From Solirubrobacterales bacterium (GTDB taxonomy: Bacteria > Actinomycetota > Thermoleophilia > Solirubrobacterales > 70-9): DNA of 64,000 nucleotides. How positions within the stretch are numbered: the stretch's first letter is position 1; each line of letters opens with the position of its first letter. The position numbers and the translations under genes were made by a program. The DNA lies in assembly GCA_023958085.1 (NCBI GenBank), contig JAMLGI010000005.1, forward strand, positions 1-64,000, in the 5' to 3' direction. The notes beneath the pieces are model-generated. The model was not told the origin of the DNA. It was given only the letters and a program-made list of their open reading frames with translations, and did not search any database. Below are positions 17,200 through 18,915 of this stretch, in pieces.

Positions 17200-17205
17200 T
17201 AGGGT
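17200..17205 (+). promoter_or_regulatory. -10 box candidate for the SAM-riboswitch transcript
   Basis: TAGGGT fits TANNNT and sits 18 nt before the P1 stem of the riboswitch, so transcription would begin around 17212. TTCATC at 17178-17183 could be a weak -35 at 16-bp spacing. Confidence 0.45.
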
Positions 17206-17223
17206 TTCGGGAAGACATAAGCA

Positions 17224-17332
17224 CCACATCCAGAGGGGTGGAGGGACTTGGCCCTACGAAACCCCGGCAACCATCCAGGCGAAAGCCCGGACCTGGTGCC
17301 AAATCCAGCGGCAGAGATGCCGGGAGATGTGG
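17224..17332 (+). promoter_or_regulatory. SAM-I riboswitch aptamer
   Basis: The P1 stem is CCACATC (17224-17230) with GATGTGG (17326-17332), 7 perfect pairs. Between them are the conserved SAM-I blocks in order: AGAGGGGTGGAGGGACTTGG, then GGCAACC (17267-17273), then GGTGCCAAATCC (17295-17306). SAM-I aptamers bind S-adenosylmethionine and shut off methionine- or cysteine-related genes when SAM is plentiful. An intrinsic terminator follows at 17351-17378, so control is probably by transcription attenuation. The regulated gene is a threonine synthase-like enzyme followed by a sulfur carrier. Confidence 0.93.
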
Positions 17333-17350
17333 GGAGGAGCATCCGATCGG

Positions 17351-17378
17351 ACCTTCGCCCCACAGGTGAAGGTTTTTT
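17351..17378 (+). terminator. Riboswitch expression-platform terminator
   Basis: ACCTTCGCC (17351-17359) pairs with GGTGAAGGT (17365-17373) over a 5-nt loop, 9 pairs including one G-U, followed by a run of six T. It lies 19 nt after the SAM aptamer and 32 nt before the ATG, as expected for a SAM-dependent off switch. The nearby self-complementary TCCGATCGGA (17343-17352) overlaps its 5' arm and may take part in the antiterminator. Confidence 0.85.
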
Positions 17379-17410
17379 GTTACCGCCAGTGGCGGAGAAA
17401 GGTCGATCGG

Positions 17411-18643
17411 ATGTCAGTCAACAATCTCAGATGCAAGGAGTGTTCAGCCGAGTTTGAGCTGGATGCCCACTACTACTGCGACCGCTGTTTCGGTCCACTC
17501 GAAGTTCGCTACGACTTCAGTGGGCTCGACCCGGAAAGTGCCCGCCGCAGAATCCAGGCCGGGCCGGACTCGATCTGGCGTTACTCGGACTTCCTACCGT
17601 TCGGGCAGCCGGTACGGGATGCGCTCCAGCCTGGACTCAGCCCGCTGGTCAGGGCGGACCGGCTGGCAGAACGGCTTGGAACCGGGGCCGAGATCTTCAT
17701 CAAGAACGAGGCGGCGAACCCGACCCACTCCTTCAAGGACCGGGTGGTGGCCGTGGCCCTGGCGAAGGCGCAGGAGCTCGGCTACACGACCGTCGCCTGC
17801 GCCTCGACCGGGAACCTGGCCAACGCGGTGGCGGCCCACGCGGCGGCGGCAGGCCTCGAGTCGTACGTTTTCGTCCCCTCCAACCTGGAGGAACAGAAGC
17901 TGCTCGCAACCGACATCTACGGCACCCACCTGGTCGGAGTGAAGGGCAACTATGACGACGTGAATCGGCTCTGCACCCAGCTTGCGGACGAGAAGCCGTG
18001 GGCCTTCGTCAACGTGAACCTGAGGCCGTACTACTCCGAGGGTTCCAAGACCCTTGCCTTCGAGGCAGTCGAGCAGCTCGGCTGGAATCTGCCGGACCGG
18101 GTGGTCGCGCCGGTGGCCTCCGGCTCGCTGTTCACCAAGATCGCCAGAGGCTTCGAGGAGTGGATCGAGGTCGGGTTGGTCGACGGAGCGCTGCCGGCGT
18201 TCCACGGCGCCCAGGCTGCGGGCTGCTCCCCGGTCGCCACCGCCTTCGCCGAGGGGTCACGCGTCTGCCGGCCGCAGAAGCCGGACACGATCGCCAAGAG
18301 CCTCGCGATCGGTGACCCCGCAGACGGCCCCTACGCGGTGGCCCGGGCAACCGAGACCGGAGGTTCGATCGATGCGGTCGATGACGAGGAGATCCGGGCC
18401 GGGATCCGCCTGCTGGCTGAAACCACGGGGATTTTCACCGAGACTGCCGGCGGAGTGACCGTCGGGGTCCTGCGGAAACTGGCCGAGCGGGGCGAACTCC
18501 GGGACGGCGAGAAGGTCGTGGTCTACATCACCGGCGAGGGGTTGAAGACCCTCGACGCCAATCGCGATAGTTTTTCCCTGACCGAGATCGCTCCCGATCC
18601 GGCAGGCTTCGAGGCCGCCTTCGGCCAGGAGGTTCACGTCTGA
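17411..18643 (+). CDS. Threonine synthase-like PLP enzyme under SAM-riboswitch control
   Basis: A 410-residue fold-type-II PLP enzyme. The N-terminus carries a zinc-ribbon-like C8/C11...C23/C26 pattern found in many threonine synthases. The PLP lysine is K109 in NPTHSFKDRVV, and STGNLANAVAAHAAAAG is the substrate/phosphate loop. Threonine synthase converts O-phosphohomoserine to threonine. Here the lysine motif has TH and RVV where classical enzymes usually have TG and RG. The gene is controlled by an SAM riboswitch and overlaps a CysO-like sulfur-carrier gene by one base (TGATG). It may therefore be a paralog that adds sulfur to a phosphorylated amino acid. The start at 17411 follows AGAAAGG by about 11 nt; the longer open frame upstream crosses the riboswitch and is not coding. 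Confidence 0.85.
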   Translation: MSVNNLRCKECSAEFELDAHYYCDRCFGPLEVRYDFSGLDPESARRRIQAGPDSIWRYSDFLPFGQPVRDALQPGLSPLVRADRLAERLGTGAEIFIKNEAANPTHSFKDRVVAVALAKAQELGYTTVACASTGNLANAVAAHAAAAGLESYVFVPSNLEEQKLLATDIYGTHLVGVKGNYDDVNRLCTQLADEKPWAFVNVNLRPYYSEGSKTLAFEAVEQLGWNLPDRVVAPVASGSLFTKIARGFEEWIEVGLVDGALPAFHGAQAAGCSPVATAFAEGSRVCRPQKPDTIAKSLAIGDPADGPYAVARATETGGSIDAVDDEEIRAGIRLLAETTGIFTETAGGVTVGVLRKLAERGELRDGEKVVVYITGEGLKTLDANRDSFSLTEIAPDPAGFEAAFGQEVHV

Positions 18644-18915
18644 TGAGTGTCAAGATCAAGATTCCGGCCCAGCTGCGTGTCGCCACGGGTGGTGAATCCG
18701 AGTTGGCGGTAGAGGGATCCACGGTAGGGGAGGTCCTCGATGCGGCCTTCGCTGCCCACCCGGATCTGCGGGACCGGATCAGCGAGGATGGCGAGCTGAG
18801 GCGGTTCGTGAACGTATATGTGGCCGGCGAGGACATCCGTTTCGGGGACGGCCTCGGTACCGGAGTGAGCTCCGGAGCCGAGGTGACCATTCTCCCCGCG
18901 GTGGCCGGCGGCTGA
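18643..18915 (+). CDS. CysO-like ubiquitin-fold sulfur carrier protein
   Basis: A 90-residue MoaD/ThiS-family protein ending in TILPAVAGG. The C-terminal Gly-Gly is the site that becomes a thiocarboxylate. The FVNVYVAGEDIRFGDGLGT segment and the exact C-terminus resemble Mycobacterium CysO, which delivers sulfide to the PLP enzyme CysM for cysteine synthesis. Here the partner encoded upstream, with a TGATG overlap, is a threonine synthase-like PLP enzyme. No CysM, Mec+ protease or MoeZ-type activating enzyme lies in the window. Its stop overlaps the CTG start proposed for the next gene. Confidence 0.85.
   Translation: MSVKIKIPAQLRVATGGESELAVEGSTVGEVLDAAFAAHPDLRDRISEDGELRRFVNVYVAGEDIRFGDGLGTGVSSGAEVTILPAVAGG

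Follow-up and report, generated by a model that had tools for sequence, protein, structure and literature searches.

Why should a gene that matches the threonine synthase family lie behind a SAM riboswitch and run directly into a gene for a sulfur carrier? The question is raised by a locus on the forward strand of the 64,000-nucleotide stretch of DNA analysed here (the window). The locus is very likely a SAM-repressed operon that encodes a homocysteine synthase, MetM, together with the sulfur carrier MetO on which it depends. The reaction is not new, as MetM/MetO has already been published, and the window pair is very probably one more member. The following features were identified:

17223..17333, + strand: SAM-I riboswitch aptamer, RF00162 (cmscan 84.1 bits, E = 2.1e-18, full model 1-108)
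17328..17364, + strand: antiterminator (fold of 17325-17385, which lacks the 5′ strand of P1, -23.4 kcal/mol)
17351..17378, + strand: intrinsic terminator (sequence; folding of 17350-17380, -14.3 kcal/mol)
17394..17402, + strand: probable ribosome binding site, GGAGAAAGG (sequence; 8 bases before ATG 17411)
17411..18643, + strand: metM-like gene, ThrC-family fold-type-II PLP enzyme, 410 aa (TIGR00260, PF00291, alignment A1)
18643..18915, + strand: metO-like gene, ubiquitin-like sulfur carrier, 90 aa (PF02597 ThiS, NF041918 SAMP1, alignment A2)

The first-pass annotation had claimed a SAM-I aptamer with a terminator, and both were confirmed. The gathering score of RF00162 is 44.4, and the same aptamer was recovered when the whole genome was scanned for SAM-I. 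The terminator consists of a 9-bp stem, ACCTTCGCC/GGTGAAGGT (17351-17373), with the loop CCACA, followed by a T6 run that extends to 17378. An antiterminator is also present, in which CCCCACA (17358-17364), a segment covering part of the terminator 5′ arm and the loop, would base-pair with its complement in the 3′ strand of aptamer helix P1, TGTGGGG (17328-17334). RNA folding of the whole leader gave the aptamer together with the terminator (-72.0 kcal/mol). With SAM bound, the operon should be off. At high SAM levels, the P1 helix would form, then the terminator, and the operon would be silenced; at low SAM levels, the 3′ strand of P1 would instead pair with the 5′ arm and loop of the terminator, and both genes would be transcribed. 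The genome-wide scan returned only two SAM-I matches, neither of them on metXY. The second (C6:31100-31199, or L003:7101-7200; 51.8 bits) ends 6 bases before a 168-aa ORF that has no Pfam match and is no recognisable methionine gene, and two small ORFs further 3′ resemble a toxin-antitoxin pair.

The first gene was reported to encode a fold-type-II PLP enzyme, and its product indeed matched TIGR00260 (thrC; 282 bits, cut-off 167) as well as PF00291. The start at ATG 17411 agrees with the N-termini of relatives in alignment A1. The Schiff-base lysine is K109 by homology, and a Cys4 motif (C8/C11/C23/C26) is located at the N-terminus. Canonical ThrC (TIGR00260) has the fold, the Schiff-base lysine motif and the expected substrate, O-phosphohomoserine, in common with the window enzyme, which differs in its separate grouping, SAM control, carrier partner and altered active-site motifs. 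The enzyme is only 38% identical to the canonical ThrC of its own genome; its identity to the corresponding enzyme of G023, which is among the eleven genomes of family f25/genus g49 (probably Streptomyces), is ~54%. In place of the conserved ThrC motifs SFKDRG(M), STGNT and NP.R.EG(Q)KT, it carries SFKDRVV, STGNL and VNLRPYYSEGSKT. Alignment showed that V113, L136, R205 and Y208 are invariant in MetM and that V112 occurs in 24 of 25 MetM sequences; the Arg of the ThrC motif NP.R.EG is replaced by Tyr in the MetM group, with an Arg placed three residues earlier. These altered positions may cause the changed reaction. A tree of 50 proteins separated 39 MetM-type sequences, including that of the window, from 11 other ThrC-like sequences (support 100/99). 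Four of the 39 belong to family f25. Gene context marks only one of the 11 outgroup proteins as a canonical ThrC, and it sits on a long branch; the tree therefore places the window enzyme with MetM without resolving exactly where it branched from ThrC.

The second gene had been described as a ubiquitin-like carrier that ends in Gly-Gly and overlaps the enzyme gene by one base. This description was borne out by the matches to PF02597 and NF041918, by the C-terminus ...LPAVAGG, which places a carrier with C-terminal Gly-Gly next to the enzyme, and by the enzyme TGA and carrier ATG, which share exactly one base. The carrier is ~49% identical to that of G023 and 47% identical to the CysO of its own genome. 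The 5′ neighbour of the locus is a CorA transporter gene on the opposite strand; the 3′ neighbours encode a nucleotidyltransferase, an epimerase and an SRAP protein, and have no evident link to the pair.

In Streptomyces albulus, MetM was described as a homocysteine synthase that uses O-phosphohomoserine (Hasebe et al. 2024, AEM, PMC11497804, as cited in PMC12172450). According to the same citing paper, the carrier gene metO neighbours metM, and a SAM riboswitch is located upstream (Hasebe et al. 2024 in PMC12172450, 2025). The window locus has the ThrC-like PLP enzyme, the adjacent sulfur carrier, the upstream SAM riboswitch and the gene order in common with this system. It differs in that its host also keeps MetX-MetY-MetW, and in the one-base overlap of the carrier start with the enzyme stop. 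The earlier proposal that O-phosphohomoserine and a carrier thiocarboxylate yield homocysteine is supported by homology to the MetM/MetO of PMC12172450, and, judged from sequence, the pair almost certainly serves homocysteine synthesis. The substrate and product would be O-phosphohomoserine and homocysteine, by analogy with the Streptomyces system. In S. coelicolor, we take SCO4293 and SCO4294 to be the likely metM and metO orthologues. These genes were grouped with SCO2910-2912 in a sulfate-assimilation expression set (PMC2267785), which fits a role in homocysteine synthesis.

The host assembly is actinobacterial, 2.44 Mb in size and 95% complete, and encodes seven PALP-family enzymes. The first-pass annotation would have counted it against its proposal if the window gene were the only thrC; it is not, as a canonical thrC follows lysA-hom on contig C8, apart from the window pair. 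The possibility that the carrier works only with a CysM/Mec+ set elsewhere had also been raised. CysM, Mec+, CysO and a MoeZ-type E1 with a rhodanese domain are clustered at about C8:65.2-68.5 kb, and since this set has its own carrier, the window carrier is not needed for CysM. A CysK gene is present on contig C20, and the further carriers of the genome are MoaD and a ThiS fused to ThiG, the latter seen as a ThiS and ThiG-like domain within a single 329-aa ORF (L026:5243-6232). The host CysO (L021:6389-6667) ends ...AMAGGSA, two residues past the Gly-Gly, which the nearby Mec+ might trim. The metY, metX and metW genes are adjacent on contig C11, and a classical direct sulfhydrylation route is thus present in the host besides the pair; the metX is unlikely to be a contaminant, because a genome of the same genus (G347) has MetX too. 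The first-pass annotation had named a complete classical pathway, together with a pair that is not co-conserved, as grounds against its proposal: the former was found, as metX-metY-metW, whereas the latter was not, the pair being strongly co-conserved.

Co-conservation was surveyed in 396 Actinomycetota genomes, with MetM called by the A1 profile at >350 bits. A SAM-I match was present in 199 of them and MetM in 139. In the 62 MetM genomes with coordinates listed for both riboswitch and MetM, the riboswitch was located on the same strand within 500 bases upstream of MetM in 57. Among 40 riboswitch loci that were fetched, 27 had MetM downstream, with a carrier behind it in 24 (one of the three carrier-less loci ends at a contig end). 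The remaining 13 loci led, by sequence or by eye, to metX (3), metK (6) or metH-type genes (4), indicating that the riboswitch of this phylum controls methionine and SAM genes, metM-metO among them. The placement of other aptamers on metK, metH-type genes and metX counts in favor of the homocysteine reading. The order riboswitch, ThrC-like enzyme, carrier recurs in many families of the phylum, so the arrangement is not due to chance. In some families, such as f14 and f17 (G007, G022, G025, G037 and others), MetM was found without an RF00162 match; these genes are likely under other control or behind a diverged riboswitch. At L077, L089 (family f24) and L094, the SAM-I riboswitch lies on metK, and neither MetM nor MetX was detected in the respective genomes at the thresholds used.

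Could the gene nevertheless encode an additional threonine synthase, perhaps with deaminase activity, whose position beside a carrier gene is accidental? The TIGR00260 score is above the cut-off. In addition, according to PMC12172450, a Microcystis homologue that is 51.6% identical to S. albulus MetM produced threonine from O-phosphohomoserine in vitro, and also α-ketobutyrate from threonine. With Na2S, homocysteine formation by this homologue was not proven, and the passages describing these assays mention no thiocarboxylated carrier. Given the Microcystis result, some MetM members could be bifunctional or dependent on a loaded carrier. Nevertheless, control in the window is exerted by SAM rather than threonine, and the host has a canonical thrC beside hom. 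Among the 139 MetM-containing genomes, only four show no further ThrC-like match (counted by eye), the rest having at least one. The MetM group also shows the changes RGM to RVV, STGNT to STGNL, and Arg to Tyr in NP.R.EG, and the carrier is kept beside the enzyme from Actinomycetota to Aquificota. A threonine-forming enzyme with a carrier gene as an accidental neighbor is therefore very unlikely, and a plain threonine synthase duplicate was rejected on account of the second thrC, the SAM control and the altered motifs. The Microcystis result does count against the homocysteine reading, as do the match to the general ThrC family model, the MetX, MetY and MetW encoded by the host, and the modest strength of the MetM-MetX association given below.

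The relationship between MetM and other homocysteine routes was examined in the same 396 genomes. MetX is missing from 101 of the 139 MetM-containing genomes; 38 genomes have both, 113 have MetX only, and 144 have neither. The association is negative and modest (odds ratio 0.48, p = 0.001, kinship ignored), and it is only modest because so many genomes have neither. In families such as f4, f8, f14, f17, f20 and f44, most or all members carry MetM and MetX is absent; in f18, f30, f28 and f61, MetX is present and MetM absent. Owing to the many genomes with neither, 80 good genomes were then selected for closer analysis, with PF01053, MetA and DUF39 added as alternative-route families. MetA and DUF39 were also missing from 41 of the 45 good genomes that have MetM and lack MetX; the pair would make up for a missing acyl-homoserine route in these 41 relatives, but not in the host, which has metX-metY. 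Every acyl-homoserine route requires a PF01053 enzyme (MetY/MetB/MetZ), and no such enzyme was found in 18 of the 45, compared with 0 of 35 controls (p = 5e-6, kinship ignored). In most of the MetX-less relatives examined, no homocysteine route other than the pair is recognisable. In the host, it may be a second homocysteine route, under SAM control.

These results bear on the reading that the carrier feeds MetY with O-acetylhomoserine, as in Wolinella, while the ThrC-like enzyme only makes or diverts a precursor. In Wolinella succinogenes, HcyS/MetY consists of a fold-type-I MetY that uses O-acetylhomoserine, and not of a ThrC-like enzyme. That system resembles the window proposal in that the thiocarboxylate of a carrier is the sulfur donor for homocysteine. 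The thiocarboxylate route to homocysteine is known in Wolinella (cited in PMC5764234), and the host does have MetX and MetY; however, the host MetY is encoded beside metX and metW on C11 rather than beside a carrier, MetXY is on a contig other than that of the pair and has no SAM riboswitch, and 18 MetM-containing genomes have kept the pair without any PF01053 enzyme. A Wolinella-type division of labor is highly improbable. CysM/CysO of Mycobacterium tuberculosis likewise combines a fold-type-II PLP enzyme with a thiocarboxylate carrier, for which MoeZ-type activation is assumed, but its substrate is O-phosphoserine and its product is cysteine, and the window genome has a separate CysM/CysO/Mec+ set. 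That the pair makes cysteine from O-phosphoserine in this way, an alternative offered at the first pass and suggested by the fold-type-II PLP enzyme and by the resemblance of the carrier to the host CysO, is highly improbable and was rejected, because a complete CysM/Mec+/CysO/MoeZ set and CysK are encoded elsewhere, the enzyme groups with ThrC rather than CysM and has no Mec+ nearby (both CysM and Mec+ being on C8), and the SAM riboswitch and MetX complementarity point to homocysteine.

For the preferred homocysteine synthase, a chemical sequence can be proposed, in which we infer both the MoeZ partner and the γ-replacement steps. The C-terminal Gly of MetO would be adenylated and then converted to a thiocarboxylate; the MoeZ-type E1/rhodanese whose gene accompanies that of CysO on C8 is the probable catalyst. 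O-Phospho-L-homoserine would form an aldimine with the PLP of MetM (on K109, by homology), and elimination of phosphate would give a β,γ-unsaturated ketimine, as in threonine synthase. In threonine synthase, Cγ is protonated and water is added at Cβ. MetM would instead take up the thiocarboxylate sulfur of MetO at Cγ, and hydrolysis of the resulting thioester would free homocysteine.

The pair also extends beyond the Actinomycetota. According to Price et al. (2018), no homocysteine route was known for Aquifex aeolicus, Pyrolobus fumarii or Acidimicrobium ferrooxidans. A. ferrooxidans (G080) carries the SAM-I riboswitch, MetM and the carrier, and is among the 41 genomes without MetX, MetA and DUF39. 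When its MetM was used as the query in a scan of named genomes, the best 80 matches, which include no Streptomyces records, contained MetM, mostly with a carrier, in Aquificota (including an Aquifex MAG), Nitrospirota, cyanobacteria, Chloroflexota and others. Of these loci, 13 were scanned for the riboswitch: it was detected in those from Actinomycetota and Chloroflexota, but in none from cyanobacteria, Nitrospirota or Aquificota. The cyanobacterial result fits the Microcystis thrC, which is given as lacking a SAM riboswitch in PMC12172450.

Threonine synthase models pick up many MetM genes, so annotation would label these as threonine synthases, and automated pathway tools would then call their owners methionine auxotrophs. 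Reading the trio as a homocysteine synthase operon corrects the annotation in a large share of the Actinomycetota. The same reading is a testable proposal for the gap noted in 2018, as A. ferrooxidans and Aquifex lineages both carry the pair, which is a candidate to close the homocysteine gap in these organisms. The breadth of the pair may merit follow-up, since many genomes show no other recognisable homocysteine route. MetM/MetO is probably an old, multi-phylum homocysteine route that fills the A. ferrooxidans/Aquifex gap, and the Nitrospirota cluster, taken as CysM, two E1-like enzymes, an NIL-like protein and a Mec+-like protease, may serve both cysteine and homocysteine synthesis. In the two Nitrospirota loci (L115:3194-8156 and L141:3027-7957), a CysM-like protein, an E1, MetM, MetO, a second E1 and a Mec+-like protease are encoded in a cluster; a small ORF resembling an NIL domain was seen, by eye, in L115 only. 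The CysM-like protein of L141 has an N-terminal ThiS-like stretch, and its MetO runs on past the Gly-Gly (GGAQEEVGRWPA), so that trimming would be needed.
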